Below, one piece after another: positions 3,337 through 57,366 of a stretch of 64,000 bases of DNA. Position numbers and translations under genes: made by a program. Numbering within the stretch: position 1 is the stretch's first letter; the number at the start of each line of letters is the position of its first letter. Location: positions 1 to 64,000 of the forward strand of contig JAJAPY010000013.1 of assembly GCA_020523885.1 (NCBI GenBank), read 5' to 3'. Under the pieces are notes generated by a model. The model had not been told where the DNA came from. It did not search any database and saw nothing but the letters and a program-made list of their open reading frames with translations. Source of the stretch: Candidatus Liberimonas magnetica. Lineage in GTDB: Bacteria > Elusimicrobiota > Endomicrobiia > Endomicrobiales > JAFGIL01.

Positions 3337-3595
3337 TCAACTGTTGAGTTCTTAATTATAAATTTATAAATTTGGATAATTGTAATCTTGAAGTTAATCA
3401 CCGTAATGAGGGGCTGATGAGTTTTTAGGTGCCCCCTAGCACTACTTCGTTAAGTGAGGTTTGTCATTGCGAGCCAGAGGCGAAGCAATCTCGACGTTTT
3501 GGAGATTGCCACGTCGCTTCGCTCCTCGCAAAGACACCGAAGAAGAAAGAGTGTCGTATGATATTCGACTTAACGAAGTGATAGTTAGCCTGGCT
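3337..3595 (-). repeat. Right copy of the perfect 259-bp inverted repeat
   Basis: Exact reverse complement of 2644-2902, with a 434-bp spacer between the arms. The arm overlaps the 3' end of recN: the last codons of recN and its stop (3585-3587) lie inside the repeat. Identity over 259 bp implies a recent origin or ongoing gene conversion. Confidence 0.95.
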
Positions 3596-7707: not shown

Positions 7708-9270
7708 CTATTTTTTATAAGTGTCGATCTTGTATGTTTTGTTTTCATAAAATGTAATTCTAATAGCTCCATTATCAGTTGTAGAATAAATCTTTTTATC
7801 ATTGAATTCATCCGGGTCGTAAAGCGGGTTTTTACCTTTTGAGGCTATAACAACTTCAGGGCTAACGGCAGACATGAATTCCTCGCCCAAGCCTTTCTTG
7901 CCGTGTTTGGGAAGCTCAAGCACTGTTGAACTTAAATCCATATCTGATACGGCAAGTTGTTTCTGAATCCTATAGGGCATATCGCTTGTAAAAAGTATTT
8001 TGTTGCCGTAATATTCAAACTGCAAGACAAGGGAATTATTCTCTCTGTGTTTTGAAACAGTTTTGGGTGACAGGACAGAAAGTTTGCTTTTGTCCGCTAT
8101 AAAGCTGTCTCCTTCCGATACTTTGCTAAAGTATATCCTGCGGTCTCTTATAAAGCTCATAATATTTTTAAAATCATCATCCTGATAAATCGCTTCAGAT
8201 GTAATAATTTGGCTTACCTCAAAATTGTCCGTTATAGCTTCAAGCCCGCCTGTCCTTGGAACTGTAAAATTTGTGATTATTATTTTATCGAGTTTTTTTA
8301 CTCCCTGGCCCCAGAGATATGGGCATACTATCCTTTGCCCGACGTCAAAATAAGGGTTAAAGCTCCCACCTGTGTCTATGAGCCAGTTCTGGCCGTTTGG
8401 GAACCTTATATGTACGGCATCGCCGTAGCCCACGTCTAAGAAAGTTACACTTAACTGCTTTTTTAAACGATAATCATCAATGTAACTTTTACCGAAAGGC
8501 AAAATAAGTGCCGGTATCAGCAAGAATGCCATCCCGGGGTATTTTTTCAGCTTAAATATACCCCACACGAATACGTAGTAGCAGGACAAAAACAAAATCG
8601 AGGGTGTTGGAACTCTTGCCGTTGCAAATGATACATCTGCAAAATAAACTACCAGCCAATAAAGCAGTTTTACCGTAATATTTATCGCTAATGTAACAAT
8701 TGGTGTTAAAAAGGACAATAATGAATTGACTAAATAAAATACAATGCCAAGGCTCGTTAATATCCCGCTAAGAGGGACTATCACCAGGTTGCTTATTATC
8801 CCTATTACGGATATTTTGTTGAAATATAGTGCGAGGAGCGGGTCAACGAATATTTGGGCGGAAATGGATACAAGAAAAAGTCCCATCAGCCATTTTACCC
8901 AGAAATAAGAATTTATAAAAGGCTTAAACAGGATAGGGTATAAATAAACTATGCCAAGCGTAGCTGCAAAGGAGAGCATAAAGCTTGCGGTAAAAAGGGA
9001 TTGCGGGTCAAAGATGAGTATGGTAAGAGCTGCAAGCGAAAGCGACTGGTATATTCCCGATTCTCTTGCAAGCCCTAAAGAGATAATTATAAAAATAGCC
9101 ATCACGCTTGCCCGCAGTATAGGCGGGTTTGCTCCTGTTAATAACATATATAAAATTATGAAAGGGATGGTTAAAAATGCCGCGTATCTTTGCCTCAAGC
9201 CCAACATCCGAAATAGAGTCAGGAAAATAATTACAACGTATGCAACATTGAGGCCACTTACGACTAAAAC
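7708..9270 (-). pseudogene. comEC: ComEC 3' fragment: competence membrane domain and metallo-beta-lactamase domain
   Basis: This is the last 519 codons of the DNA-uptake channel gene, cut off from its start by the 47-kb element. The minus-strand frame begins at the element border with HVLVVSGLNVAYVV, the second half of the conserved H-x-L-x-x-SGL-N/H-V motif of the ComEC competence domain. Six or so membrane segments follow, then LSVTFLDVGYGDAVHIRFPN, the start of the C-terminal metallo-beta-lactamase-like domain, with LIDTGG. The first internal ATG is at 9207 (MLGLRQRYAAF), so a truncated protein of 499 residues is possible but would lack the N-terminal domain and half the motif. Joining codon 9265-9267 to 56692-56694 restores the frame to a 744-residue protein, normal for ComEC. 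Confidence 0.95.
9268..9270. other. Left attachment junction (attL core AAC)
   Basis: Comparing the two element borders, host bases to the left read GACTAA-AAC and element bases continue GTGTGTCC. The same AAC occurs at the right border. Only three bases are shared, which fits a large serine recombinase (2-3 bp core) and not a tyrosine integrase. Crossover anywhere within AAC restores comEC. Confidence 0.85.
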
Positions 9271-9272
9271 GT

Positions 9273-9665
9273 GTGTCCTCCCAACACAATGCAGGTAAAA
9301 AATTATGTATCAGCATGGAGATTACCATTCCTGAGAAGCAGAAGAGGGCTGAAAACAAACCCGGCAAGGACTTCGTTACCTTATATTTTGCCCTTCCCAA
9401 AAACCTGTCAGACAGGCTGGAAGGTCATGCCAAAGATCAGAAGACTACTGAATCAGCAGTCTTGAGGAATATGATTGATGAGTATTTTAGCAAAAACAAA
9501 GGAAAAAGTCTTGATTACAGCCCATTGAAGAAACTGTCAATCCTTGGCATGAAGACCACTCCACGGACTGTTCGCAGAGACCAGGATAAAATGTTAAGGG
9601 ATTTTTCACAAAAGACCGGGAGAAATGTCAGCGAGATTGTGAGAAATGCGATTGAAAAATATTAA
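9273..9665 (+). CDS. Ribbon-helix-helix-like protein; C-terminal part of the recombinase frame in the circular form
   Basis: A 130-residue frame starting at GTG 9273, two bases inside the element; ATG 9315 (MEITIPEKQKRAEN) is an alternative start. It seems to hold two RHH-like units: TLYFALPKNLSDRLEGHA followed by ESAVLRNMIDEYFSK, and TTPRTVRRDQDKMLRDFSQ followed by GRNVSEIVRNAIEKY, each a strand plus two helices. RHH proteins bind DNA as dimers. In the reconstructed circle this frame is continuous with the serine recombinase (GAA 56691-56693, then CGT, then GTG 9273). It could serve as a recombinase DNA-binding tail, a repressor or a directionality factor. No clear ribosome-binding site is visible in the integrated form. 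Fold by motif only. Confidence 0.7.
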   Translation: MSSQHNAGKKLCISMEITIPEKQKRAENKPGKDFVTLYFALPKNLSDRLEGHAKDQKTTESAVLRNMIDEYFSKNKGKSLDYSPLKKLSILGMKTTPRTVRRDQDKMLRDFSQKTGRNVSEIVRNAIEKY

Positions 9666-9709: not shown

Positions 9710-9756
9710 ATTAGCAGTCTATCAATGTAAGTGCTAATTAAACGCTTTGATTGTTT

Positions 9757-9842
9757 CATGGTATGGCGGAACTGGCAGACGCGGCAGCCTATCAAGCTGT
9801 TGCACTTTAGTGTGCGTGAGGGTTCAAGTCCCTCTTCCAAAA
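9757..9842 (+). ncRNA. Degenerate class II (Leu-like) tRNA-like RNA
   Basis: The D-arm TGGCGGAACTGGCAGACGC, a long variable arm (GCAC...GTGC) and a perfect T-arm (GAGGG-TTCAAGT-CCCTC, 9818-9834) give a leucine-like class II tRNA body. The anticodon stem GCAGC/GCTGT holds the loop CTATCAA, so the anticodon would be AUC (an Asp codon reader), wrong for a leucine-type body. The 7-bp acceptor stem pairs at only about four positions (CATGGTA with TTCCAAA). It is therefore unlikely to be an ordinary decoding tRNA. A consensus promoter lies 48 bases upstream and a hairpin with a T-run follows at 9930-9982, so the RNA would be roughly 270 nt with the tRNA-like part in its middle. Large phage-associated RNAs such as GOLLD and ROOL are known to occur near or with tRNAs; membership here is untested. 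Confidence 0.6.
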
Positions 9843-9929
9843 ATTCGCCGTTTTTAGCGGCTTTATTATATGTTATAAAAGGAATAATGAAACCATAATT
9901 TTCTATATCTAGACACCTTACCTCTGAAG

Positions 9930-32320: not shown

Positions 32321-32896
32321 ATGCGAAAAGAGGTGACGGCAAATTATGAGTGGGTGGCTGAAAGTGCTAGGCGAAAAGCCATTCTATTGAGTTTTAACAG
32401 GCCAATGATTAAATCTGAGATTGAGGAAAAGGTTTCTTCTTTTATTGGTATCAAAGGCAGGGCAAGCGTTAAGCTGAAAGAATTTATTGACAGAGGACTG
32501 ATAGTATTCTCAAATCAGGCAGTAAGAGAAGGCAGGATTTACAGCTTATCCGAAACCGGCAGGGGAATTGCCCTTGAGGTTGCGGAATCAGGCAATTTTC
32601 ATTGGCAGTATTCCGAGCCGGTGCTTGACTGGCGATTATATGGCAGTATTGTTTGCGGTAGGCGAAAGAGAAAAATATTGCATGATATAGTAGAGAAAGG
32701 GCGCATTACTACGATTTTAAAACACTATCATATAAAAGCTGAACTCTTGCGGGATACCCCCCGTAGTTATAGATACAAAATTCTTAATGACTTCCTGAAA
32801 TCAGGGGTTGTGCAGAAGATTATTGAAAAAGGAGTGCCTGTATATGTGCCGACTGAGAAGGCCAGGGAGTTATATTCACTTATTTTTGCGAATTAG
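32321..32896 (+). CDS. Winged-helix DNA-binding protein
   Basis: A 191-residue basic protein with a wHTH: RKAILLSFNRPMIKSEIEEK, GIKGRASVKLKEFIDRGLIV and a wing at GRIYSLSETGRGIALEV (about 15-85). A second wHTH-like repeat may be present in the C-terminal half (RKRKILHDIVEKGRITTILK and YKILNDFLKSGVVQKIIEKG), so it may be a tandem wHTH. Archaeal-style regulators look like this. It is preceded by the TTAGGACA motif, so it may be autoregulated. It converges on the tyrosine recombinase at 32893 with a 4-base overlap. Confidence 0.7.
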   Translation: MRKEVTANYEWVAESARRKAILLSFNRPMIKSEIEEKVSSFIGIKGRASVKLKEFIDRGLIVFSNQAVREGRIYSLSETGRGIALEVAESGNFHWQYSEPVLDWRLYGSIVCGRRKRKILHDIVEKGRITTILKHYHIKAELLRDTPRSYRYKILNDFLKSGVVQKIIEKGVPVYVPTEKARELYSLIFAN

Positions 32897-34122
32897 CTTT
32901 GATTCTTCTTTTTTATATTTATCTTGGTTGATTCTATTTTTTCGTTCATTTTTGCCCATTTCTTTTTTAGCTCTATTCCTTTAGCAGGATCGTTCATTCG
33001 CACCCCTTGTTTATCTAGTTCTATTAACATAGTCTTAATAAAATCTAAAGAAATGTCCTGAAAATCCTTTAGGTTATTGAACTGGTCAGTTAGGCTATTT
33101 ACTTTTTCTTCCAATTCAGTCTTTTTATCAGGGGGCAGTTCTTCAGTCTGGTAGATTTGGTTTTTTAAAATCGCTTTCAAGGTTTCTTCATCTAAGTGTT
33201 CATAGGCCTGGCTCATGTCCTTAGAGTGACCCATGAAGTCAGCAGCCGTGTCCTTGCTTATCTTACCTTCACGTGCCAGCTTGTATAACATCGTGGCTCT
33301 GCTATGTCTCAGGAGATAGTTCCACATATTACGTCCAACCTTATCAGACAGCCCACGCATCCACAAGCTAATAGTAGATTTATCGATTGGTTTGTTTATA
33401 TCCCCCTTACTATGGAAAACATAAACACCAATAGTTCCAAGCCTTTCTTGTTCTTGTTTTAACAGATGCAAATAGCCAGTAGCTTTCTTTACAAACACAG
33501 GCCGAGACCTTTTTGTCTTTGTGGCATAAATATTAACCTCTGAAATGTCTCCATCTATGCTCAGCTTTAAGTCTGCCCACTTCAACAGCCTTGTCTCAAT
33601 GGTCCTTAGTCCAGCTTCAAATTGAACCAAGAAGAATGTCTTATAGAATAGCCTACTTTCATGTTTTAGAATATTCTCAATATCTATTTCGGTAAGCATA
33701 TCTGCGGAAGACATCTTATTTTTATTAGCAGGTTTTGAGATTAGCCTGATATCTTCTAAGTTATTGAATCGAGCTGACCAATCCTTAAAATGCCATTTAA
33801 GAAAATTTCTTAAGTTTATCTTAATGTTATTGCGCGCATAATCACCCATATAGGAATTGTTAAGCAAAACCAGGAAGTTAATAATGTCATTTAAGGTTAG
33901 TTTTGAAAAAGGCTTTTCTGTAACATATCGGATATGTAATACATAGCGCTTGATGTCTGCCAAAGTCTCGGCAGTCATAGAACCATACTTGGCTCTAGCC
34001 GTTCTATATTTTAAATACTGGCTAATAATATCCTGCTCTTTCTTAGGTAGGGAATTATAAAAGAATTCAATCGGCGAGCCCCCTTGTCTGCCTTTCTCGA
34101 ACTTCGGATAATTATTTAGCAT
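32893..34122 (-). CDS. Tyrosine recombinase/integrase (full length)
   Basis: A 409-residue Xer/integrase-type protein. The N-terminal SAM-like binding domain is at about 30-130. The catalytic part holds EAGLRTIETRLLKWADL (Arg), a Lys in TKTKRSRPVFVKK, LLRHSRATMLY (H-x-x-R) and FMGHSKDMSQAYEHLDEE (His and Tyr). The remainder is a coiled-coil tail (PPDKKTELEEKVNSLTDQFN). The sequence style resembles integrases common in archaea and candidate phyla. It may resolve element multimers or handle internal cassettes, since the chromosomal borders fit the serine recombinase instead. Convergent with the winged-helix gene. Confidence 0.88.
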   Translation of the reverse strand: MLNNYPKFEKGRQGGSPIEFFYNSLPKKEQDIISQYLKYRTARAKYGSMTAETLADIKRYVLHIRYVTEKPFSKLTLNDIINFLVLLNNSYMGDYARNNIKINLRNFLKWHFKDWSARFNNLEDIRLISKPANKNKMSSADMLTEIDIENILKHESRLFYKTFFLVQFEAGLRTIETRLLKWADLKLSIDGDISEVNIYATKTKRSRPVFVKKATGYLHLLKQEQERLGTIGVYVFHSKGDINKPIDKSTISLWMRGLSDKVGRNMWNYLLRHSRATMLYKLAREGKISKDTAADFMGHSKDMSQAYEHLDEETLKAILKNQIYQTEELPPDKKTELEEKVNSLTDQFNNLKDFQDISLDFIKTMLIELDKQGVRMNDPAKGIELKKKWAKMNEKIESTKINIKKKNQS

Positions 34123-34608: not shown

Positions 34609-36642
34609 CTACGCATAATTGCCGACGCTGGTGGCTATCACTTTTTTTGTGTTAATTATGCCTGCCTTTTTAAGCTCTTCCTTGATTTTGAGTTCTGTGG
34701 CTTCGTTTGTGGCGACAGAAATTACGCAGGTGCAGTTGTGTTTCAGGCACTTCATTACATTGTAAACTGCTCTCCTGGGTTCTGTCTCAATTTCTATGGC
34801 AATATTCTCATTCTGTTTTTCTATGATTATATCGGCATTTCCATTTACGGGTTCTTCAATCTTAACCTTGTATCCTTGTTTTGAATAGTATTCGGCTATT
34901 TTGTTTTTCCAGTAGCGATGTTCTATGCCTTCGTTTGAGAATTTAGCATCATATCCTGTTTCATTCAGGTGTGCTATTCCCTTGTTTGTGAGCTGTAATG
35001 CCTTAATCATTCCTTTTGCAGTTGTTATCTTTCCTGATTCTACCAGACCCTTTTCAATCAGCCTATCCTTTGTCTTGTTTCCTTCCCTTACATTCAATTC
35101 AAGCCGGTTGTATCTTTCAATTATGTTAGAAGTCGGCATTTCATACACATCTGCCAGGAATTTATTGTAAACAAGGGGTATTTCAATTTTTTGCGAAACA
35201 GGGGGTATAGTATCATGACATGGTGAAATACCCTCAAATTCGCTGAAATTCTTGTTTACAGGGCTGGTAGAGGCGAAATGCCCCTTCATTCTTTCTTTAA
35301 TTATTTCATCTGTTATTACCCCTTTTTGGATAGGAACCAATGGGAATTTTACATGGCAGGGATCAATCCTGTTTTTTATTTTTAGTATTCCTTCGCCGAC
35401 TTTCAGCTTATCAAGATAGATTTCCTGCCCGTTTTCAAGGAACAATGATTTCTTTGAAGCGTAAATGTCATCGCCGTGCTGCAAGCCTAAAGTAATCTGT
35501 GTGTGGCAGTTGCCGAGAATGTATATAGGCAGAAGGCTTGTATGCTGTGTTATGCTTACCAATCCTTCCCCGAATCCTCTTATCTCTCGATATACGTTTT
35601 CCAATGAACTTAAAGATTCCATTTCTATTTTGTTTTTAGGGAAAAGATTATGAATTTCCTCAATGAACAGGACGTGCCTTAATTTATCGCTTTCTCTTTG
35701 CGAGAGCCTGTATAAGTGGATCCATCTCAAAATTATTTCAGTAAAGAAAGTTCTCAAGGGTTTTGGCATTTCCTGGTCAAGTTCTATTATGACGGGTTTT
35801 TCAAGTAACTCTTCAAGCTTTATAGGATGCCTTACATTAAAGCATACTGCATGAGGCCCGAAGGTGAAGCTCTTTAATACCCTTGCTGTGGACTGCTTCC
35901 AGAGCAGCTCTCTTGCGAAAGCATTTGTCTTTTCAAGTTCCTTCAAGCCGTCAAAGAAGTTAGGGTATTTGTCGCCCTGTCCTATGGTAAAACCTGCTTC
36001 TTTGAATTTCTTTTCATAAATCTTCATGAAGAAGTCTGCGACTCCCATACCGGCAAGGTGCGATCTTTCAAGGGCTTCTGTTATTATTGCAAGCCATGTT
36101 TTCCAATGAACATTTGGCGGCGGCCTGAAAGGGTTCCAGTAAAAAGGCGCTGTCATTCTTCCTACTGTGAATACTTGTACATCCTTTAATTCAGGAAATT
36201 TGTCTGAAAGACTTAACAAATTACGGTAGCTTCTTTTCCAGTCAATTACTATAAAGGGGGTTTTGTTCTTTAGCAGGTTAAGGGCGAGAATCATGGCCAG
36301 ATTTGTCTTACCCTCGCCTGTTATTGAGAATATGCCTATCTGTTTTACAAAGTCCTGCTCATTTAGTCCAACCGGACAGACTTCTTTTCCGTTATACAAG
36401 ACGTTCCCGATGGGGAATGTTCCCTTTGCAGATTCTTTGTCAGGCGGAACAAGTAGAATGTTTTCCTTTCCAATGTCTGTTTGCAGATGCTTGAAATATA
36501 GAACCTGAAATATTTCCTCAAGCTCTTTTCTATCTTTCCAGCCACTCGTGAGGTAAGTTTTCCATAAAATGTCTGCTTTCCAGCCTAGTACGGGCTTGAG
36601 CCTCTTGCAAATCTCTTCCGGTGTGAGGTTATTGTTATTCAT
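34609..36642 (-). CDS. HerA-like ATPase fused to a winged helix and PD-(D/E)XK-like nuclease (paralogue A)
   Basis: A 677-residue protein. The P-loop is FSITGEGKTNLA at about residue 110 (Ser in place of the usual first Gly/Ala), and Walker B is HVLFIEEIHNLF at about 350. The arrangement is that of HerA/VirB4-like hexameric DNA translocases. Around residues 505-570 lies a winged helix (ERYNRLELNVREGNKTKDRL). The last 100 residues have HRYWKNKIAEYYSKQGYKVK then GNADIIIEKQNENIAIEIET, a D...E-x-E pattern typical of PD-(D/E)XK nucleases. The start overlaps the upstream gene by 8 bases (ATGNNTAA). A paralogue lies at 52918. Possible roles: DNA transfer motor or HerA-type antiphage nuclease. Confidence 0.8.
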   Translation of the reverse strand: MNNNNLTPEEICKRLKPVLGWKADILWKTYLTSGWKDRKELEEIFQVLYFKHLQTDIGKENILLVPPDKESAKGTFPIGNVLYNGKEVCPVGLNEQDFVKQIGIFSITGEGKTNLAMILALNLLKNKTPFIVIDWKRSYRNLLSLSDKFPELKDVQVFTVGRMTAPFYWNPFRPPPNVHWKTWLAIITEALERSHLAGMGVADFFMKIYEKKFKEAGFTIGQGDKYPNFFDGLKELEKTNAFARELLWKQSTARVLKSFTFGPHAVCFNVRHPIKLEELLEKPVIIELDQEMPKPLRTFFTEIILRWIHLYRLSQRESDKLRHVLFIEEIHNLFPKNKIEMESLSSLENVYREIRGFGEGLVSITQHTSLLPIYILGNCHTQITLGLQHGDDIYASKKSLFLENGQEIYLDKLKVGEGILKIKNRIDPCHVKFPLVPIQKGVITDEIIKERMKGHFASTSPVNKNFSEFEGISPCHDTIPPVSQKIEIPLVYNKFLADVYEMPTSNIIERYNRLELNVREGNKTKDRLIEKGLVESGKITTAKGMIKALQLTNKGIAHLNETGYDAKFSNEGIEHRYWKNKIAEYYSKQGYKVKIEEPVNGNADIIIEKQNENIAIEIETEPRRAVYNVMKCLKHNCTCVISVATNEATELKIKEELKKAGIINTKKVIATSVGNYA

Positions 36643-37171
36643 ACCGCACTACTCCCTCAAGGCTGTTTCCTGAAATCAGTTGTTTCTTCCTTGCGTTTGT
36701 CTTGTAATCATTCATTGCAAACATCAGGTCTTTTCTTAACTCTGCTATATCGCGCCAGCATGATATTTCCTGCTCTCTTTTATCTTTTTCAGAATCCAGT
36801 ATGCTTTTTTCGATGTCATTCCTTGCTTTGATAATTACTGGTGAGGTTGTGTCACAGAAAAGGTCTTCAAGCTGGAAGAGCCTGCTTCGCTGTCCTGATA
36901 TTGAATAATCTATTTTGTTCAGGTTATTGTATTTTATCCCTATTCTTTCCTTTATCTGCGATATGGTGTTAATGACTGAGCTTTTTGCAAAAGCTGTCTT
37001 GTCAGCAAACAATAGGTCAATTTCGTCTTTGGAATCCCTGCATGATTGCATTTCCATAAACCTATTCAATAGAGTCAGGTCTTCCTTGTCTGCATATATC
37101 GGGATAAAGCCATTATTCTTTTCCTTCTTGCAGTATTCCAAGTCCTTTATGATTTTGTATTCAAGTTTCAT
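36635..37171 (-). CDS. Partner protein of HerA paralogue A
   Basis: A 178-residue helical protein (KEDLTLLNRFMEMQSCRDSK, KARNDIEKSILDSEKDKREQ) with no recognised domain. Its stop overlaps the HerA-like start by 8 bases, so translation is coupled and a complex is likely. Minus-strand motif TTAGGACATAGCTTTTA (37196-37216) sits 25 bases before its ATG. It diverges from the histone-fold gene across a shared 108-bp control region. Confidence 0.6.
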   Translation of the reverse strand: MKLEYKIIKDLEYCKKEKNNGFIPIYADKEDLTLLNRFMEMQSCRDSKDEIDLLFADKTAFAKSSVINTISQIKERIGIKYNNLNKIDYSISGQRSRLFQLEDLFCDTTSPVIIKARNDIEKSILDSEKDKREQEISCWRDIAELRKDLMFAMNDYKTNARKKQLISGNSLEGVVRYE

Positions 37172-44643: not shown

Positions 44644-46926
44644 ATGCTCTGGAATGGCACAAATAGAAAATATATATGCGAAATAATAAGGGAAAGTTCT
44701 GCCGGAAATGTTGTCTTCCTTGCTGGCGCTGGGGTTTCAATTTTGCCACCCTCTTCTTTGCCTCTTGCTCCCGAATTATCCGGGCTACTTATAAAAAATA
44801 TCTTTCAAGGTGAAGATAAGATACTATCAAACATACCTTTTATAAGACCCGAGATAATTTTTGAGGCTACTAGAAAAGTGATTGGCGATAGAGTGTTCCG
44901 CTTATTTGAGATTTTTAAAAGCGATTTACCAAATGATTGTCACTTGTGCCTATCTGCTTTATGTGCGCCCATATTAACAACAAATTTTGATGAACTGTTT
45001 GAAATAGCATTTGAAATAAATGGCTATAGAAAAGAGTATCATTCAGGGTTAAGTTTGAGTTACACAAATGTTGCATCGGGGCAATTCACCACGCTTGTAA
45101 AACTTCATGGTATCCTTAATCAACCAGAGACAATTATTGCATTTTTATCAAAAATATATGAGGGTATAGATCCTGAAATATACAAATATTGTTATCAGCT
45201 AATCAGGGATAAGATACTTGTAATAATAGGGTACAGTTGCCATGACATGGATGTTTTTGAATTAATAGTTGATTCACAGCCTTCAAAAATAATATGGATA
45301 GATATATCTTTCAGGGATCAACATGATTCACTTCGTCAACAATTGATGAAAAGATTTCAAACTCACCAAGTTTTGTGTAATATTGCAGATTTCTCAAAAT
45401 TATTTCAAAGCACACACAATTATAATAAATCTTTAGACCATGCAAATTCATGGAAAAATTGTTTGGTATCGTTTTATCTATCCCTGACGAAAGAAGAAAT
45501 TGAGAAAATACGCGGTCATATTATGGCTTCTCTTGGATTCGCGGACTATGCTACTACATTATTGGAAAAGTATTTAATAATCAATGCTCAAATATACTCT
45601 ATGAGTGAAAAAACTAAAGATTATGAGCATCTCGCAAAAGATTATTTTGAACTTGGGAAATATAAAAAAGAGGCGTATAGACCTTATGAAGAAGTTTCTG
45701 ATATACTGATGAAAGCATTTCATTTCTACAAAAAAGCTGATAACTGGAAAGGGCAATGCGAAGTACTATGGGAAGTCGGTTTAAAAGCAATTGACAGTTC
45801 GGAATGGAAAAGCGCAGAGCGGTATTTCAATGATTTAGCCGTTATAGCTGAACAAAATCATTTCCAGATATACATGACTTTAGCAAAAATAGGCAAGGCA
45901 TTGCTGCATTATTGGCAGTCTGCAACAGTTGAAGATTTTAAAATAGCGCTGGAAGAATTTGAAAAATCCAGGTCTGTTCTTTCGAAATCAGGAAGATATC
46001 GGGACTTGTTAAAAGTATATCGTTTAATCGCATCAGTCAATTTTGTTAGAGCAAAGTATAAGGAAGCGTTAGAAGCTGATATGAAATGTTATGATATAGC
46101 AAAAGATATAGGCGACTTAAAGGAACAGGCTAATTGTATTCGAGATATGGCTACATGTCTTAGGAATCTTGGAGAATATAAGAAGCCATTCGTTATGTAT
46201 CTTGATTCGCTTAAACTTGGATTCATTGCGCCTGATTTTAATAACTATGGCATTACTATAGGAAATGCATCGGAAATGCTTTTGGAGCAAGGTTTTACTC
46301 AGACTGCATTGGAAGGTGCCAAGCTATCGGTTTATCTTCTGGAAAAGACAAAAAATGAATTATACAAAATATCCTTTCTTCAAGCCTTGTCTCTTGCTTA
46401 TACAAGGTGTGGAAATCAAGACGAAGGACTTAGAACTATTGAGAAAAGTATTGCTCTGGCACATAATATGCATGATTATTTCGAAGAGGCAATTGCAAGA
46501 TACACTAAATCCATAATTCTAGGAGAAAATAAAAGATATTCTGAAATGCTTAATGAATTGAAAAGAACGATGGATTTGGCATCTCGGACAGAAAATAAGG
46601 CAATATACTACCTCAGTAATTCTTTGCTTCTATTTAAAGAAAATCATGTTTTCCCAAAATCGTATCAAACAATAAAGGAAAACATACAGGCATTAGATAC
46701 TATGGGGGCAGAAAATGAAAAGTTAATACTAATTTCAAAAGTGTTTAAGTCATATTTTTTGAACCCATTAAAAAACCCCTTGTTAATATTTTCTTTATTT
46801 GAATTTATATCATTGAAAACTGTCAGATGTTTTATCAAAAGAATAGGTTTTGTTATTTGGCTAAAACTCATTGGAGAGAAAAGATTTCACAATTACTTGT
46901 CTTCTATTGAAAAGATAGCAGAATAA
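44644..46926 (+). CDS. SIR2-like domain protein with TPR repeats
   Basis: A 760-residue protein. The N-terminal 230 residues are a SIR2-like (NAD-binding) domain: VVFLAGAGVSILPP (G-A-G-x-S), PILTTNFDELFEIAF (T-T-N-F-D), TTLVKLHGIL (K-L-H-G) and VIIGYSCHDMDVFE. This Rossmann set occurs in antiphage effectors that deplete NAD+. The remaining residues are TPR-like helical repeats (ANCIRDMATCLRNLGEYKKP, SFLQALSLAYTRCGNQDEG), likely a sensor. Start ATG 44644 with AGGGGAG before it. It stands alone, with long spacers on both sides, as solitary defence genes often do. The layout is that of SIR2-TPR abortive-infection proteins; the trigger is unknown. Confidence 0.82.
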   Translation: MLWNGTNRKYICEIIRESSAGNVVFLAGAGVSILPPSSLPLAPELSGLLIKNIFQGEDKILSNIPFIRPEIIFEATRKVIGDRVFRLFEIFKSDLPNDCHLCLSALCAPILTTNFDELFEIAFEINGYRKEYHSGLSLSYTNVASGQFTTLVKLHGILNQPETIIAFLSKIYEGIDPEIYKYCYQLIRDKILVIIGYSCHDMDVFELIVDSQPSKIIWIDISFRDQHDSLRQQLMKRFQTHQVLCNIADFSKLFQSTHNYNKSLDHANSWKNCLVSFYLSLTKEEIEKIRGHIMASLGFADYATTLLEKYLIINAQIYSMSEKTKDYEHLAKDYFELGKYKKEAYRPYEEVSDILMKAFHFYKKADNWKGQCEVLWEVGLKAIDSSEWKSAERYFNDLAVIAEQNHFQIYMTLAKIGKALLHYWQSATVEDFKIALEEFEKSRSVLSKSGRYRDLLKVYRLIASVNFVRAKYKEALEADMKCYDIAKDIGDLKEQANCIRDMATCLRNLGEYKKPFVMYLDSLKLGFIAPDFNNYGITIGNASEMLLEQGFTQTALEGAKLSVYLLEKTKNELYKISFLQALSLAYTRCGNQDEGLRTIEKSIALAHNMHDYFEEAIARYTKSIILGENKRYSEMLNELKRTMDLASRTENKAIYYLSNSLLLFKENHVFPKSYQTIKENIQALDTMGAENEKLILISKVFKSYFLNPLKNPLLIFSLFEFISLKTVRCFIKRIGFVIWLKLIGEKRFHNYLSSIEKIAE

Positions 46927-50763: not shown

Positions 50764-50786
50764 TTAAAGCCTACACTGAATAAGTA

Positions 50787-50846
50787 AGGGGCTAAGTGGT
50801 TTCTGGTTTTGTTTTATAAAAAACCAGCCATTTAGCCCCTTTTTTT
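50787..50846 (+). terminator. Strong terminator
   Basis: AGGGGCTAAGTGG pairs with CCATTTAGCCCCT (one GU) with an inner CTGG/CCAG stem, followed by seven T. It separates the Cys-rich gene from the right-end operon. Confidence 0.92.
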
Positions 50847-50914: not shown

Positions 50915-51166
50915 ATGAAAATTCAGATTAATAGTGGTAGGCCTTTTCATGTTGTTACAGAACTCAATTTGCCTGATGTTTTTGGATACCAATATTCAGT
51001 ATCGTTTTTAAAGGAATATTTCTCTAAACAGTTGGGAGTTGCGTTATTGGATGTAGTTTTTTCCGACACAATCAGCGAGATGATAGGGATAAATAATGAT
51101 GCAATTTCAATGAAGCGAGCCATATTATTGAAACGTGAGAAGAGAGATTCTAAAAAGCGTAAATAA
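50915..51166 (+). CDS. 83-residue protein, first gene of the right-end operon
   Basis: ATG 50915 after AAAGGAG. No recognised domain; the basic tail (LLKREKRDSKKRK) suggests nucleic-acid contact. The longer frame's TTG start (50870) is rejected for lack of a ribosome-binding site. Confidence 0.55.
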   Translation: MKIQINSGRPFHVVTELNLPDVFGYQYSVSFLKEYFSKQLGVALLDVVFSDTISEMIGINNDAISMKRAILLKREKRDSKKRK

Positions 51167-51226
51167 AATGAGGCGATACTGTGCAAAAGCCCAAATGAAG
51201 TTGAAATTCAAAAAAGGAGGCTCAAA

Positions 51227-51430
51227 ATGCAAGCAAAAGTGCTGGGAGAATTAAAAGATTTCAAAAACGTCCAAGATTTTCAGGATTATTGCCGTGATCT
51301 GATTAAAAAGAAGGAACAAAGACGGATTGAGTTAAAGAACGAAGACAAGACGCTCAAAAAGGAGATTAAAGAGCTGAAAGGAGACATCGGCGACGAAAGC
51401 AGGGAAGAGACCACGACGGAAGAAAAATAA
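51227..51430 (+). CDS. Coiled-coil protein, paralogue 1
   Basis: A 67-residue protein with AAAGGAGG before ATG 51227. The product reads MQAKVLGELKDFKNVQDFQD and continues as a long charged helix, ending GDIGDESREE. The same pattern appears in the protein at 51867 (ILGEMKYFKDVQEYQGQVRK; ADIGGKEKEE), so the two arose by duplication around the acidic gene between them. Confidence 0.65.
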   Translation: MQAKVLGELKDFKNVQDFQDYCRDLIKKKEQRRIELKNEDKTLKKEIKELKGDIGDESREETTTEEK

Positions 51431-51450
51431 TATCTGTAAAGGATGGTGCT

Positions 51451-51864
51451 ATGTTCTTAATAGATGATTTGCATAATTTGGTCAAAGAAGCATTGGTTAA
51501 TCTTGCCAAACCATACGAAACCAACACTGACCTTGAGGCAGTCAGAAAGTATCACGGCAGCAGGGAAGATGACGATTCAAGAAGGGGCCTTGACCGAGAT
51601 TGTCCCGACAATAGCAAGGTGCGGGGGCATTGGTATGTTGATGAAGATGGTTATATTTCAAAAACCCCTCCTGAATCTCCCAATTCGCAGAAAACGTTTG
51701 AAGACTCCCCTGAGTCTGAAAGGCACAGCACGCATGAAGTTCAGTCAGACCTTTCTAATTTCTGTAGCGGGTTTGATGAAGGCGGTCCTTCCAACAGAGA
51801 ATCTGCCAATGACCCGTCTGATTCATCTGAACAATCGAGTTTGTCAGACTTTAGCGGTGATTGA
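51451..51864 (+). CDS. Acidic disordered protein
   Basis: A 137-residue protein. After a helical start (FLIDDLHNLVKEALVNLAKP) it is rich in Asp, Ser, Glu and Pro, low in hydrophobic residues and probably disordered. An overlapping frame at 51464-51913 is less likely, because it lacks a ribosome-binding site and the chosen one fits the gene spacing. It lies between the two coiled-coil paralogues. Possible DNA mimic or assembly linker; speculative. Confidence 0.55.
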   Translation: MFLIDDLHNLVKEALVNLAKPYETNTDLEAVRKYHGSREDDDSRRGLDRDCPDNSKVRGHWYVDEDGYISKTPPESPNSQKTFEDSPESERHSTHEVQSDLSNFCSGFDEGGPSNRESANDPSDSSEQSSLSDFSGD

Positions 51865-51866
51865 AA

Positions 51867-52091
51867 ATGCTCAAGGAGGCAGCAGAAATATTAGGCGAGA
51901 TGAAGTATTTTAAGGATGTGCAAGAATATCAGGGGCAAGTAAGAAAACTCATCAGTGATTTCCTAAGTGAGATTGAAAAGGCTAAAGATACGATTAAGTT
52001 GCGTAAGAAACAAATTAAGAATTTGCGGGCAGACATCGGCGGGAAGGAAAAGGAAGAAAAAACGGATTTTCAGGAGAAAGAAAATCTTTAA
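51867..52091 (+). CDS. Coiled-coil protein, paralogue 2
   Basis: A 74-residue protein. ATG 51867 overlaps the ribosome-binding sequence AAGGAGG; the alternative ATG 51900 would drop the conserved front. The body (SDFLSEIEKAKDTIKLRKKQ) is a long coiled coil related to the 51227 product. Part of the operon reading into the HerA paralogue. Confidence 0.6.
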   Translation: MLKEAAEILGEMKYFKDVQEYQGQVRKLISDFLSEIEKAKDTIKLRKKQIKNLRADIGGKEKEEKTDFQEKENL

Positions 52092-52102
52092 GGAGTTAAC
52101 CA

Positions 52103-52522
52103 ATGAATAATAATAGTAACAATAATCCTAACGATTTTTATGAACAGATTTTCGGGACTCCGCAGGCTAACGCTCAGCCTACGACAATTATTAAAAGAAA
52201 GCTTGTCAGAAGAAACGGAGTTGACAGTCTGATGTACGAGGTGATACAAAAGCTAACCATGGGGCAAGACGGCAATCCGCAATTGCTTATAGAAGAACGG
52301 CACGGGGTTCTCGATGACGGCGCGCCATTCGAAGTTAAAATAGGTTTTACGACCTGTTCACAAGGGCACATCGTGCACCCTGGAAATATAGGATTTTGTC
52401 CCCAGTGTGGCCGCAAATATTGCGTGAAGTGCTGGGATTCCGAGTGTAGTGTATGTCATGTTGATTTGCAGTTTCAAAGCTTGGGCGCATTGACAGACGG
52501 GCACTCAAAACAACTTCGCTGA
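52103..52522 (+). CDS. Zinc-binding protein, paralogue 1
   Basis: A 139-residue protein, AAGGAG before ATG 52103. A front Asn-rich linker leads to a beta-rich part (KRKLVRRNGVDSLMYEVIQK) and a C-terminal cysteine cluster CSQGHIVHPGNIGFCPQCG, CVKCWDSECSVCH, with treble-clef/RING-like spacing for two zinc ions. The 52536 product is a clear relative with the same K-R-x-x-V-x-R/K-x-x-G front and G-H-I-V. It is directly upstream of the second HerA-like fusion. Confidence 0.7.
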   Translation: MNNNSNNNPNDFYEQIFGTPQANAQPTTIIKRKLVRRNGVDSLMYEVIQKLTMGQDGNPQLLIEERHGVLDDGAPFEVKIGFTTCSQGHIVHPGNIGFCPQCGRKYCVKCWDSECSVCHVDLQFQSLGALTDGHSKQLR

Positions 52523-52535
52523 AGGAGGCCACTCA

Positions 52536-52925
52536 ATGAATAAAGATACTGTTTTTTATGGTTCTGGTGAATCTGACAATGGGGATGATAATAAGCCTGT
52601 AAGGAAAGTTATGAAAAGGGTTGCCGTAAAGAGGAAAGACGGGAAAGAGCTTGTTTTGCATGAGGTGATTGTTACCGCATATACCGGGCCTGACAATACG
52701 CCTGACTCTGGGCAGGTCAGTCATTTCGGCACTCTGGATGATAACAGCGTCTATGATGAATCTCTGCCGGTGGTTTCATGCAATAACGGGCATATTGTGC
52801 AGGGATTAATTACCTGTCCGAGATGCAGAAAGACAATGTGCAAAACGCCTGGCTGTCATGGGACTAATTGCGTCGGGATTGAATGCCCTTTTTGTGGGAA
52901 AACTTTTGAGTGCAAATATGGATAA
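52536..52925 (+). CDS. Zinc-binding protein, paralogue 2
   Basis: A 129-residue protein, AAGGAGG before ATG 52536. Front: KPVRKVMKRVAVKRKDGKEL. C-terminal cysteines CNNGHIVQGLITCPRCRKTM, CKTPGCHGTNC, CPFCGKTFEC give two or three zinc sites. Its stop overlaps the HerA paralogue start by 8 bases (ATGGATAA), the same layout as the 36635/36642 pair. The pair is probably translated together, and the zinc protein may be a subunit of the HerA complex. Confidence 0.7.
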   Translation: MNKDTVFYGSGESDNGDDNKPVRKVMKRVAVKRKDGKELVLHEVIVTAYTGPDNTPDSGQVSHFGTLDDNSVYDESLPVVSCNNGHIVQGLITCPRCRKTMCKTPGCHGTNCVGIECPFCGKTFECKYG

Positions 52926-54879
52926 TTTTGACTTCAAGCAAAGAATTCTTCTTAATACTGTAATGAACAGACTCAAGGAAAAGAAAGTGCTTACAGGAGA
53001 AGCTCAAGCGCTCTTCCTTAATGCGTCCTTATCTCCGAGTCCTGAGACTTTTACTGCCTTTTTAGGCTGTGCCGGGGAGTTAATACAGAATGCAGGGAAA
53101 GTATCGCCTTTTTACAAGCCGGATATTAAGGATAATATTCAGGGAGTAATGAAATTCGGTTTTAGTGAAAACGTCATTCCTGTAGGGATAGACATAGGGC
53201 AGTTTCATACCGCAGTTTTCGGCCAGACGCGATCCGGCAAAAGCGTGATGCTTTTTATGATGTTGGCGCAAGCGATGAAGCAAAATAATTCTGTATTCTG
53301 GGTATTTGCAAGAGCCAATGATATAAGAAGACTGCTTCATGTCAGCAATGATATTGTTTTCGTTACTTTTGACGGGCAGATCAGATACAATCCGATTCCA
53401 AAGGATGAGAACCTTGCCCGCTTTACCGACCCTTTTATACAGGCTACAACCCTGTTTGACGGGACAGACAATTATCTTGCCGAGCAGATTTACAGGCTAA
53501 AGATTGAAAAGCCGGAGCCATCATTGTCGGATTTGTACAAGCATATAATGTTTCAGAAGCATTTGACTAACTCACGGCAGGATCAGTACAAGCAGAGTTC
53601 CCTTAACAGGCTGGGAGGCATATTGAGAAGCAAGCTCGGGAATTTCCTGAAAGGCGGGAAGGATTGCTTTGAACAGCTTATAAATCATAATGTAGTCTTT
53701 GAAATGAATGAGTTAAGATCATGGGAACAGGTGCTTGTGGTTAACCTGCTGATTCTTCATCTTTCAGACTGGAAAAGGAAGCATGCATCAGACTTGCACC
53801 ATATTATTGTGCTTGAAGATGCCTCAGCAATTTGCAACATCGCATTTGACAGGAATCCGAGAAAGCCAATCCTTGCGGACAGTTTTGACACATTGGCAAA
53901 AGATGGTTTTCAGTTTATTGTACTTTCCCAGTCGCCAGGTCAAGTGATGCATTTCCTCCACGCAGAAACCGACTGTAAGATTTGCCTTAAACTTTCGAAC
54001 ATGGATGACGCAATTCTTATGGCACATAAGCTCGGCGTGGAAAAAGAGCATTGGGAAAAATTCTTTTGGCTTCCAGCAAGAACAGGGTTTGTCAGCATGA
54101 AGGGGCTTCCGGCATTTCTTTTCAGGATTCCTGAAATACCTCTGATTGATTATTCATGCTTTACTGATGATTGGCTGAAACAGAATAATGCACGGCTTCT
54201 AGGTATAACAGAAGATGAAAACGTTGAAATTGAGGATGAAGAAGCAGAAGATGTTAAGGAAGAACTGAAAAAAGATGAGAGAAAGTTGCTGGAAGCAATA
54301 CATGTGAAGCAGTTTGTTGCTTCTATGGGGATGCTCTCAGAAATAACTGGTTTTGATGTAAGCAAAATCAGTCGTATGTCTAATGTTCTTGCAGAAAGAG
54401 GGTACATTTCAATTTGTGACATTCGAATCGGGAAAAGGCCCTTTCGGTATCCTGTACTTTTGGTGCGGGGATATCAAGCGCTTGGAATTGAGGAAGCTGA
54501 AAAGCAGGAATGTAAGGGCGGGCCAGATCACCGTATTTGGATATTTTTATTTGAGTCAAAGTTTAAGAAAAAGGGCATTAGCGCAGAGCATGAAAGGTTT
54601 TTAGGAGAAGGTCATAGTTCAGACCTTGTTTTGAAGTTATCGGATTATTCCGTAGGGGTTGAGGTTGAGCTTTCTTCCGCTAACACAAAAAACAATCTGG
54701 AAAAGGGATTGAGGCTTGGCTTAAACTACATTATTTTCGGGGCAAAGGACAGGAAAACCTTGCGCGAAATTCAGGCAATTATTAACGATTCATCTGAAGA
54801 GAATAAAAAGAAATGTTTTGCTTATTCGTTGACTGAGATTTACGAAGCAGAAAATATTATGGATTTGATTAAGCTATGA
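52918..54879 (+). CDS. HerA-like ATPase fused to a winged helix and PD-(D/E)XK-like nuclease (paralogue B)
   Basis: A 653-residue protein; ATG 52918 is chosen because it overlaps the zinc-protein stop (the longer frame starts inside that gene). Walker A is VFGQTRSGKSVMLFM at about residue 100, and Walker B is HIIVLEDASAICN at about 300. Next an acidic linker (ENVEIEDEEAEDVKEELKKD), then a winged helix (VASMGMLSEITGFDVSKISR), then the nuclease-like end: HRIWIFLFESKFKKKGIS, SSDLVLKLSDYSVGVEVELS (D...E-x-E). Same three-part order as the 34609 product, so they are paralogues. A motor-nuclease fusion could process double-stranded element DNA or defend against phage. Operon of seven genes with small spacers. 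Confidence 0.8.
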   Translation: MDNFDFKQRILLNTVMNRLKEKKVLTGEAQALFLNASLSPSPETFTAFLGCAGELIQNAGKVSPFYKPDIKDNIQGVMKFGFSENVIPVGIDIGQFHTAVFGQTRSGKSVMLFMMLAQAMKQNNSVFWVFARANDIRRLLHVSNDIVFVTFDGQIRYNPIPKDENLARFTDPFIQATTLFDGTDNYLAEQIYRLKIEKPEPSLSDLYKHIMFQKHLTNSRQDQYKQSSLNRLGGILRSKLGNFLKGGKDCFEQLINHNVVFEMNELRSWEQVLVVNLLILHLSDWKRKHASDLHHIIVLEDASAICNIAFDRNPRKPILADSFDTLAKDGFQFIVLSQSPGQVMHFLHAETDCKICLKLSNMDDAILMAHKLGVEKEHWEKFFWLPARTGFVSMKGLPAFLFRIPEIPLIDYSCFTDDWLKQNNARLLGITEDENVEIEDEEAEDVKEELKKDERKLLEAIHVKQFVASMGMLSEITGFDVSKISRMSNVLAERGYISICDIRIGKRPFRYPVLLVRGYQALGIEEAEKQECKGGPDHRIWIFLFESKFKKKGISAEHERFLGEGHSSDLVLKLSDYSVGVEVELSSANTKNNLEKGLRLGLNYIIFGAKDRKTLREIQAIINDSSEENKKKCFAYSLTEIYEAENIMDLIKL

Positions 54880-54892
54880 TGAATATTGAGGT

Positions 54893-55084
54893 GTTACTAA
54901 ATTCAATAAAAAGCCAAAACTTACCATTTCTATCGCTAGTGTCAATATCGAACAAAAAAATGATGCCCTTACCCTTGAACATCTGCTGGATATCCTTTTG
55001 CTTGCCAAAAAAATAGCAGACAAATCCAAAGAAGAATCTGATAAAATACAAAAACAGTTTCTTGACAATTCAAAACTATTGTAA
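54893..55084 (+). CDS. Small coiled-coil ORF without a standard start codon
   Basis: A 63-codon open frame ends at TAA 55082-55084. Its product, starting near VTKFNKKPKLTISIASVNIE, then EHLLDILLLAKKIADKSKEE, looks natural (amphipathic helix), and the GAGG at 54888-54891 would serve as ribosome-binding site. No ATG, GTG or TTG lies in frame at the expected place: GTT is found at 54893. It may be a mutated gene or use ATT or another rare start. Confidence 0.4.
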   Translation, partial: VTKFNKKPKLTISIASVNIEQKNDALTLEHLLDILLLAKKIADKSKEESDKIQKQFLDNSKLL

Positions 55085-55130: not shown

Positions 55131-56810
55131 ATGCTTGAACCTAATCCGAAACAGAAAGTAAAAGTTGCACTTTATGCGCGTGTTTCAACTGAAGAACAGA
55201 CAAATAACTATTCTCTGGATGCACAGAAGGACTTGCTTATTAAATATGCCAAAGAGAACAACTTTGTTATTACAGGGGAATACATAGACGGCGGTTATTC
55301 AGGAACGAGCGATGACAGGCCGGAATTCCAAAAGATGATGGAAGATGCGAGAGGGGGTAAATTCAATTTGGTGCTGTTTTACAAGTATGATAGGCTTTTT
55401 AGGAACAATAGGCATTTGCTGAATACAGTTGAACAGCTTTCTCAATATGGTGTTGCAATAAAATCAATCACAGAGCCTTTTGACACAAGCAACCCTATGG
55501 GCAAGTGCATGGTCTCAATTTTGGGTAGTATGGCAGAACTAGAGAGGAATAATTTTTTGGAACGCTCGAAGCAAGGCAAATTAAGAAGGTACAGGGAAGG
55601 TTATTATGCCGGGAGCGGAGTTTTTGGCTATGATTATGATAAAGAGACAGATATTCTCACAATAAACACTAATGAGGCAGAAATTGTTAAGCATATTTTC
55701 AGTGAATATATTCAGCCGGAGTCTTCCCTATTAAAGGTTGCAAGAAATTTGAGAAAGCAGGGTTTGAAGACAAAGAAAGGGCTTGAGTTTCAGTCTCATT
55801 GTATTCATGGTATTCTTTTAAATTCAATGTACACAGGAAAATGGTATGCGAATAGATTAGGCCCTAAAAACAGCCTGAAGCCAAGGGATCTATGGATTGA
55901 AGTCAAAGTGCCTGCAATAGTTTCAGAGGAAGAATATAATCTTGCACATAAGCTTCTAAAGGAAAGGCGCATTTATTCCAAAAGAAACGTGAAGTATGAT
56001 TATCTCTTACAAGGGCTAATTAAATGTGGTGCTTGTGGCTCTAAAATATCAGGCACATCAGACAGCTCATTGCCAACAATGATTAATGGCAGGCAGTACG
56101 GGCCTTATTTCAAGCTTTATTACAGGTGTAATCATTACTCAAAAAATCTCTTTGAAAAAAAAATTAGCTGTGATTTGAGATGGATTCAGTCTGAATTGAT
56201 TGACGGTGCTGTCTGGAATAAGGCTGACATCATTCTAAATAATCCTGAAATTATAAGAAAAGCCGTAGAACGGGAAAGAGAATCAATGCCTGAAAGGGAT
56301 GTTTTGCAGAAATCTTTGAAGAAGAATGAGGATGCTCTAAAAAGACTTTGCAGGGAAGAAGAAAGGATAATTGAGGCTTACAGGCGCAATATTATCAGTA
56401 TTGAGCAATTAGACCAGCAGATTAGCGATATAAGGCTGAAGAAGGAGGCTTATAGCCATGAAATTGAAAGAATTGGCCTTCTGCTTGAGGATAAGAAGGA
56501 GAATATTGAAAGTGCCATTGATTGTGTCAGCCAGATAAACAAAGGCATTGGAAAGCTCAATCCTGATATAAAGAAACGGGTCTTGAGGCTTCTTGACACA
56601 AGTGTTGTGGTGAATACCAACGGAAAGGCAAATCTTACCTTTAGGATTCCGCTATCCCTTCCAGAGTCTTTTCCCCCTATTATGTCGGCAGAACATGCAT
56701 CACACCCGCATTTACGAATTTGTTCTTCATTTCATAGCTCAGGTTTTCATCACTCCCGACAAGCATTGGTATCAATAAAGATGCTTCCAAGGCGGGGAAT
56801 TTATCCTTGA
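55131..56810 (+). CDS. Large serine recombinase; tail switched by integration
   Basis: A 559-residue integrase. The resolvase-type catalytic domain has VALYARVSTEEQTNNYSLDA, nucleophile Ser19, and KYDRLFRNN. Recombinase domain about 165-300. A zinc ribbon follows (LIKCGACGSKI...YRCNHYSK...CD, about 300-345), then a coiled coil (EEERIIEAYRRNIISIEQLD, about 400-480). AAAGGAGGTG precedes ATG 55131. The frame crosses the element border: codons 522-559 come from antisense comEC. Codon 521 (GAA 56691-56693) is the last element codon. In the predicted circle the frame continues into the RHH frame at 9273, for 652 residues in total. It probably catalyses integration at the GT/AC core inside AAC in comEC. 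Confidence 0.95.
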   Translation: MLEPNPKQKVKVALYARVSTEEQTNNYSLDAQKDLLIKYAKENNFVITGEYIDGGYSGTSDDRPEFQKMMEDARGGKFNLVLFYKYDRLFRNNRHLLNTVEQLSQYGVAIKSITEPFDTSNPMGKCMVSILGSMAELERNNFLERSKQGKLRRYREGYYAGSGVFGYDYDKETDILTINTNEAEIVKHIFSEYIQPESSLLKVARNLRKQGLKTKKGLEFQSHCIHGILLNSMYTGKWYANRLGPKNSLKPRDLWIEVKVPAIVSEEEYNLAHKLLKERRIYSKRNVKYDYLLQGLIKCGACGSKISGTSDSSLPTMINGRQYGPYFKLYYRCNHYSKNLFEKKISCDLRWIQSELIDGAVWNKADIILNNPEIIRKAVERERESMPERDVLQKSLKKNEDALKRLCREEERIIEAYRRNIISIEQLDQQISDIRLKKEAYSHEIERIGLLLEDKKENIESAIDCVSQINKGIGKLNPDIKKRVLRLLDTSVVVNTNGKANLTFRIPLSLPESFPPIMSAEHASHPHLRICSSFHSSGFHHSRQALVSIKMLPRRGIYP

Positions 56811-57366
56811 TAGTTTTAATAATGTTTTTCCTTAAAGAATAGGCAGCTGATTTGTAAAAAGGAGGCTGCTCATAACCTGTTTTCTCGATTGATTTCGCGT
56901 AAAAAATAGTATATATACCCTTACGGCCCAGGTATTTTGCGTAATTAAATCCTCCCGGGTTAGTTGTTTGAAACGGTGTTTTAATATCCCCGTTCATTAA
57001 AAGGATATCTCCGGGTTCAATATCGTTGATCTGTTTTTCTTTTGGCTTATAATTTATAAGTGTTTTTCCGCCTCTTTTGGCATTATTTAAAGAATAAATA
57101 TCGAGCACAAACGCTACTTTGCCGTTTCTTTCTTCCGGAGGAAGTATTACTCGCCCCCGTAATAGCTGTTTTTGCTGTCCGGCATAGATAGATATGCCGT
57201 CCTTAGAAGGAGGGGAAACAAAAAAACCTTTTAGGTCAAGTATGAGCAAAGTAAAAGCATACAATAAAGTTAAAGTTATTATAGGCCTTTTTGTAATTAA
57301 TTTATAAATAAATATGAAAGGGTTTAAAGAAACATGAAAGGTAAGTTTGGAACTGTTGTTTTCCAT
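56680..57366 (-). pseudogene. comEC: ComEC 5' fragment
   Basis: The first 225 codons of comEC. The native end is GVMHV at the attR core, where three element-encoded residues (LPT) and a stop follow. The N-terminus has membrane helices (IITLTLLYAFTLLILDL) and the OB-fold-like DUF4131 region (LLRGRVILPPEERNGKVAFV, GDILLMNGDIKTPF). The motif LLIPMLVGSDENLSYEMKNK then FVNAGVMHVL is the start of the competence domain. Joined to 7708-9267 it forms the full 744-residue protein. Natural transformation should be lost while the element is integrated. Confidence 0.95.
56692..56694. other. Right attachment junction (attR core AAC)
   Basis: Element sequence TCGGCAG-AAC is followed by host comEC ATGCATCACACC. 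The shared triplet with attL is AAC; the bases on either side differ (G versus A before, G versus A after). Both fragments of comEC join in frame at the triplet. Confidence 0.85.

Follow-up and report, generated by a model that had tools for sequence, protein, structure and literature searches.

The 64,000-nucleotide stretch of the Candidatus Liberimonas magnetica genome analyzed here (the window) carries, at positions 50915-54879, a short operon whose last gene encodes HerA B, an ATPase of the FtsK-HerA superfamily. The HerA B gene and the gene for a small zinc (Zn) protein form a conserved gene pair, which is found preferentially towards the integrase end of integrated elements, and usually close to a second pair, encoding the motor HerA A and a coiled-coil protein. 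The Zn-HerA B pair occurs in at least seven phyla (Elusimicrobiota, Zixibacteria, Lentisphaerae, Kiritimatiellota, Neomarinimicrobiota, Planctomycetes and Acidobacteria). We tentatively assign the operon to a family of integrative elements with two FtsK-HerA motors, in which it would be the module of motor B; as such it would be a DNA-translocation module that moves the element without a type IV secretion system (T4SS), and we give this reading somewhat less than an even chance.

Conservation of the Zn-HerA B gene pair

A search with the HerA A alignment returned 47 loci from many phyla, and a HerA B profile was then run on 32 of those genomes. The first set consisted of 16 B-type motors, whose surroundings were read. 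Immediately upstream of all 16 lies a Cys-rich protein (130-214 aa, with 7-12 Cys); at locus L055 one membrane gene stands between the Zn protein and the motor. Upstream of A-type motors the Zn protein was found in none of 51 cases in the first set, and upstream of other large open reading frames (ORFs) in 6 out of 364. Because some of the Zn genes had been seen before the list of B-type motors was fixed, we ran a held-out test on 294 Planctomycetota genomes, considering new B-type motors that scored more than about 120 bits and whose upstream DNA was available (two weaker motors of 82-85 bits, which have no Zn gene and probably belong to another family, were left out). The Zn protein accompanied 11 out of 12 of these motors, the single miss being a gene fragment. 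Among the A-type motors, 1 out of 19 had a Zn match, which was a spurious frame. The original prediction, made from the letters of the window, had placed the Zn proteins with the DNA motor, and both sets bear this out. As the Zn-HerA order recurs across many independent genomes, the operon is more than a chance arrangement.

In 14 of the 16 first-set cases, a single contig carries both HerA A and HerA B, at a distance of 3-27 kb; the other two B-type motors are on short contigs. In the motor tree, the A-type motors form one clade (support of 100 in the Shimodaira-Hasegawa-like approximate likelihood ratio test, SH-aLRT), and the B-type motors, which have long branches, fall on one side of a weakly supported branch (75). 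An integrase closely follows the B module in the window and at three other loci (L008, L111 and L071), and lies within a few kb of it in L112/L130 and L108/L127. In the Zixibacteria element (L071), this integrase is beside a tRNA-Ser gene. Two remote plasmid motors branch separately and have no Zn gene: one is from Exiguobacterium, the other from E. coli, where dynamin and HNH genes accompany it.

In the Zn family, the cysteines follow a binuclear pattern with RING/FYVE-like spacing, conserved over 17 proteins. One relative matches FYVE at E 2e-5 (25.0 bits, just under the 27.8-bit cut-off), in agreement with the RING-like spacing noticed at the outset, and the Zn proteins of the window themselves fall below any cut-off. 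For Zn1, the AlphaFold2 (AF2) model predicts a beta-meander and a C-terminal binuclear Cys-rich domain (predicted local distance difference test score, pLDDT, 73), and this model has no fold match in the PDB at E <= 0.001. Prokaryotic RING/FYVE-like binuclear treble-clef proteins have a similar Cys spacing but, unlike in these proteins, the N-terminal beta-meander of the Zn protein matches no known fold. No E1, E2 or ubiquitin-like (Ubl) gene was recognized in the window element; a Lentisphaerae module adjoins ThiF-, JAB- and ubiquitin-like genes.

The window operon holds two Zn proteins (Zn1 and Zn2; 29% identity, E 1e-8) and two coiled-coil proteins (CC1 and CC2; 43% identity, E 2.5e-9), each couple being paralogous as originally proposed. 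The same proposal took these duplications to point to paired subunits, which the relatives do not bear out as a conserved principle: every one examined has one Zn protein only, and the doubling of CC1 and CC2 was found only in the window. Both doublings therefore look like local duplications.

HerA B comprises an FtsK-HerA ATPase (residues about 61-432), a winged helix and a PD-(D/E)XK-like nuclease domain, in this order. It matches DUF87 in Pfam above the cut-off (E 4e-5), and its AF2 model has a pLDDT of 85. In the fold comparison (VIA), the best match of the motor (61-432) is DndH-C (Z 30.4, 2.6 Å over 315 residues), followed by VirB4 (Z 27.7), TrwB (26.6) and HerA (25.9). Residues K108, D569, E582 and E584 are invariant in a six-row alignment; the G107-K108 pair is invariant too. 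HerA B thus belongs to the FtsK-HerA superfamily, with a RecA-type motor core and Walker A/B motifs. The name HerA is loose, because the motor fold is also near DndH-C, VirB4 and TrwB. There is no Pfam match to the HAS-barrel in HerA B, and its N-terminal 60 residues are modeled as helical at low confidence. Likewise, there is no NurA among the Pfam and NCBIfam matches of the operon; the neighbor of HerA B is the Zn protein in 16/16 relatives. The C-terminal halves of HerA B and HerA A, each a winged helix with a PD-(D/E)XK-like domain, are homologous (hhalign 99.8%). We also considered whether this fused C-terminus is a Replic_Relax domain (PF13814); an hhalign comparison with a single sequence from L112 lent this no profile support.

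The operon and its integrative element

On re-reading, the operon comprises seven co-directional genes (Table 1), separated in order by 60, 20, 2, 11, 13 and -8 nt, with good ribosome-binding sites at most starts as read from the sequence. The strong intrinsic terminator is its upstream boundary, which ends the preceding transcript and sets the operon apart from the upstream gene. The start of CC2 was corrected to 51867, and that of HerA B is at 52918, within the Zn2 stop, and not at 52858. An operon of eight genes had been proposed. Seven of them stand, with the terminator and the short gaps, but the eighth frame is not counted as a gene because it has no standard start codon. An ATG at 54876, overlapping the HerA B stop, opens another frame of 46 aa.

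Table 1. Features of the operon, the element and the flanking host gene (window coordinates)
Feature	Position	Strand	Basis or remark
Intrinsic terminator	50786..50846	+	RNA fold -33.4 kcal/mol, z -7.8; T run after
Small basic protein, 83 aa, gene 1, isoelectric point (pI) 9.7	50915..51166	+	ORF, AGGAG ribosome-binding site
Coiled-coil protein CC1, 67 aa	51227..51430	+	ORF; CC2 paralogue
Acidic low-complexity protein, 137 aa	51451..51864	+	pI 4.5, charge -17
Coiled-coil protein CC2, 74 aa	51867..52091	+	ORF; CC1 paralogue
Zn protein 1 (Zn1), 139 aa	52103..52522	+	C-terminal Cys-rich domain; Zn2 paralogue
Zn protein 2 (Zn2), 129 aa	52536..52925	+	Tandem Zn1 paralogue; motor-adjoining copy as in relatives
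HerA B, FtsK-HerA superfamily ATPase, 653 aa	52918..54879	+	DUF87, fold matches
Coiled-coil-like frame, doubtful gene	54890..55084	+	No ATG/GTG/TTG start
Large serine recombinase, probable integrase	55131..56810	+	PF00239, PF07508, PF13408; 3' end overlaps comEC fragment
comEC N-terminal half (host), ends ..AGVMHVL	56680..57366	-	Split gene
comEC C-terminal half (host), resumes ..HVLVVSGLNV	7708..9285	-	Split gene
HerA A, sister motor sharing the domain order, in the element at a distance of 16 kb	34609..36642	-	Alignment, tree, hhalign
Coiled-coil partner of HerA A	36635..37171	-	Family in 39/46 genomes holding HerA family
Tyrosine recombinase beside HerA A	32893..34122	-	PF00589 E 7e-11; family in 16 genomes

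The operon stands directly before the large serine recombinase, which is followed by one half of comEC, the other half lying near 9285; it is therefore the right end of the integrated element, which measures about 47 kb in a host genome of 3.39 Mb. The integrase at its end and the split target gene mark it as an integrative element. The comEC junctions have no direct repeats of at least 8 bases, which is compatible with the short core of a serine integrase. Direct repeats resembling clt near the operon are just short matches in two or three copies, explicable by chance. As the split comEC is the sole copy in the genome, the host has probably lost natural DNA uptake.

The association of the tyrosine recombinase with the HerA A/coiled-coil pair recurs in several relatives, sometimes with divergent transcription. 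Other cargo of the element includes type I restriction-modification (R-M) genes, a methyltransferase-SNF2 protein, a SIR2-TPR protein (44644-46926, likely a defense gene of the element) and a protein similar to single-stranded DNA-binding proteins. A tRNA-Asp with the unusual anticodon ATC is predicted near the left end of the element (9756-9843). Elsewhere in the window, identical ORFs in opposite orientation (2485-2810 and 3429-3607) form an inverted repeat of at least 150 bp beside a large gene (71-2797).

A sister element in UBA5214, also of the Elusimicrobiota, carries the two motors at a distance of 27 kb. Its B operon encodes a small basic protein, a short acidic ORF, a membrane protein, the Zn protein and HerA B, after which come a membrane protein, a lipoprotein-like protein, a serine recombinase and a fragment of comM. 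The basic protein (L008:1878-2123) is a homologue, in the same place, of the 83-aa protein of the window (26% identity, phmmer E about 2e-4 in a small set), and the acidic ORF (L008:2153-2395) occupies the position that the acidic 137-aa gene has in the window. Across the relatives, the Zn-HerA B pair stays together but the other genes do not follow it: the small basic gene recurs only in this sister element, and no counterpart of CC1, CC2 or the acidic sequence itself turned up elsewhere. The comM fragment (L008:10250-10852) borders the UBA5214 element and the N-terminal part of comM is on another contig (L133:1444-2160), which is consistent with insertion of the element in comM. Both Elusimicrobiota elements would then sit in competence genes, a pattern drawn from two cases; insertion of mobile elements in such genes is a known theme.

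The remaining neighbors of the Zn-HerA B pair vary. They are small membrane proteins in many relatives, vWA, GrpE and Hsp70 proteins in Planctomycetes, and a tubulin-like protein in one relative. In Lentisphaerae, the genes downstream of the pair (L123:5375-7729) encode a protein whose beginning is ubiquitin-like and ends in GG, which is our reading of the sequence, a JAB-like protein, whose match is weak, and a ThiF-like protein. At L112, HerA B is followed by a separate plasmid-type Replic_Relax (PF13814) ORF. Since no significant homology pair was found among the membrane and vWA neighbors of different phyla, we do not claim a conserved membrane partner. A Pontiellaceae element with both motors also encodes an Orc/Cdc6-type protein (L109:6914-8491, PF09079 E 6e-21).

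Possible functions of the two-motor module

If the operon is a translocation module, the HerA B ring would pump double-stranded element DNA, its winged helix would select that DNA and its PD-(D/E)XK domain would cut or trim it. The Zn protein may act as a small adaptor linking the motor to DNA or to a lineage-dependent partner (a membrane, chaperone or signaling protein), and the small basic, acidic and coiled-coil proteins may be lineage-specific regulators. Once the element is excised, the motors would export its DNA from the donor without classical type IV secretion, much as TdtA has been proposed to do in ICETh1. Each of these steps (excision, pumping and export) is a proposal. In favor of transfer, we counted the Zn-HerA B adjacency, the proximity of A and B, the nearby integrases, the motor fold, the kept active-site residues, the remote match of HerA A to CedD, the Replic_Relax ORF of L112 and the precedent of TdtA. 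A classical transfer route is not at hand, because the host genome has no VirB4 beyond a weak self-hit of 23 bits, where the cut-off is 643, and no match to the two main relaxase families, PF03432 and PF08751, to which the search among the MOB families was confined.

Several observations weigh against transfer. Membrane segments are predicted in none of the window operon proteins, and a simple hydropathy scan found no multi-span membrane protein in the element, so that no export channel is identified there. The element also breaks comEC, the uptake channel that a recipient in a transjugation-type process would need. The fold match to DndH-C and the PADLOC mad8 matches of both HerA A and HerA B suggest defense equally well, and the Hsp70, vWA and ThiF/JAB neighbors are typical of conflict systems.

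Under a defensive role against mobile genetic elements, the motor and nuclease would cleave DNA entering the cell, the Zn protein would serve as a sensor or an adaptor, and the module would be defensive cargo, in keeping with the type I R-M and SIR2 genes of the element. We nevertheless consider this role unlikely. A and B stay together, often by integrases, while the defense cargo differs among elements, a pattern more in line with core mobility genes than with cargo. Moreover, no other MADS or Dnd component was found: among the nine window proteins scanned, the matches were to mad8 and to general methylases only.

About as improbable, in our view, is a role in segregation or resolution, where HerA A and HerA B would act with the neighboring recombinases in the manner of FtsK and XerCD, in dimer resolution, in excision and integration, or in segregation of the excised circle. 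Such a role is favored by the tyrosine recombinase that HerA A has as a neighbor here and in several relatives, by the integrases adjoining many B modules and by the lack of an export channel in this element. However, the recombinases adjacent to B are of unrelated types (serine and tyrosine), and the role leaves unexplained the recurring nuclease domain and the membrane genes beside B in many relatives.

It is very improbable that HerA B is the packaging ATPase of an unrecognized virus or satellite: the superfamily does include packaging ATPases (STIV B204, Z about 19) and there is a weak terminase match in PHROG (E 2e-4), but no capsid or portal gene was recognized in the element, no relatives of HerA B or Zn1 were found in viral_contigs, where the HerA A alignment also matched nothing, and none of HerA B in phage records.

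Comparison with known systems

FtsK-HerA motors in mobile and defense systems are already known. In ICETh1 of Thermus thermophilus, the HerA-like TdtA and the NurA nuclease drive DNA donation from an integrative element by transjugation (PMC5365140). Like the window element, ICETh1 is integrative and small, combines a motor of the HerA/FtsK type with nuclease, R-M and integrase genes, and has no described T4SS. It differs in having one motor, a separate NurA and no helix-turn-helix domain, whereas each of the two motors of the window element is fused to a winged helix and a nuclease domain; neither a Zn protein nor a coiled-coil partner is reported for ICETh1. The Ced system of Sulfolobales has paired motors, CedB and CedD (PMC11868833). 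Here the likeness is in two co-occurring paralogous HerA/VirB4-like ATPases, and HerA A remotely matches the DNA-exchange ATPase CedD (E 3.5e-26, far below the CedD cut-off). Ced is, however, chromosomal, pilus-linked and used for import, with transmembrane segments and CedA channel proteins, and no Zn protein or nuclease domain is described for it (PMC11868833).

VirB4 and TrwB (VirD4) share the motor fold (Z 26-28, VIA), but HerA B has neither the VirB4 N-terminal domain nor a transmembrane domain, and there are no VirB2-B10 genes. The defense motors DndH, mad8 and HerA-SIR2/DUF4297 are similar in fold (Z 30.4 for DndH and about 22-25 for HerA-SIR2), with hidden Markov model matches for mad8. 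In contrast to Dnd and MADS, whose partners were not found adjoining, HerA B has the Zn protein as its partner and recurs near integrases with a second motor.

The layout had not been recognized when the window was first read, and in the literature searched, which leaves out most subscription journals, we found neither the two-motor layout nor the Zn-motor pair described. The search also gave no paper that joins HerA with replication-relaxation, and a search for mad8 gave nothing relevant. It is possible, although we regard it as rather doubtful, that these elements are an undescribed class spanning phyla, whose DNA is moved by two dedicated FtsK-HerA motor-nucleases, one run by a coiled-coil partner and the other by a RING/FYVE-like Zn adaptor, with no T4SS and at least two members in competence genes.

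Elements of poorly cultured phyla, such as Elusimicrobiota, Zixibacteria, Planctomycetes, Lentisphaerae and others, often have no recognizable conjugation genes. A conserved motor-nuclease pair with dedicated partners is a marker for such elements and a testable candidate for the movement of their DNA. If the Zn protein is truly a RING/FYVE-type adaptor, the Lentisphaerae version would tie a ubiquitin-like module to a DNA motor.

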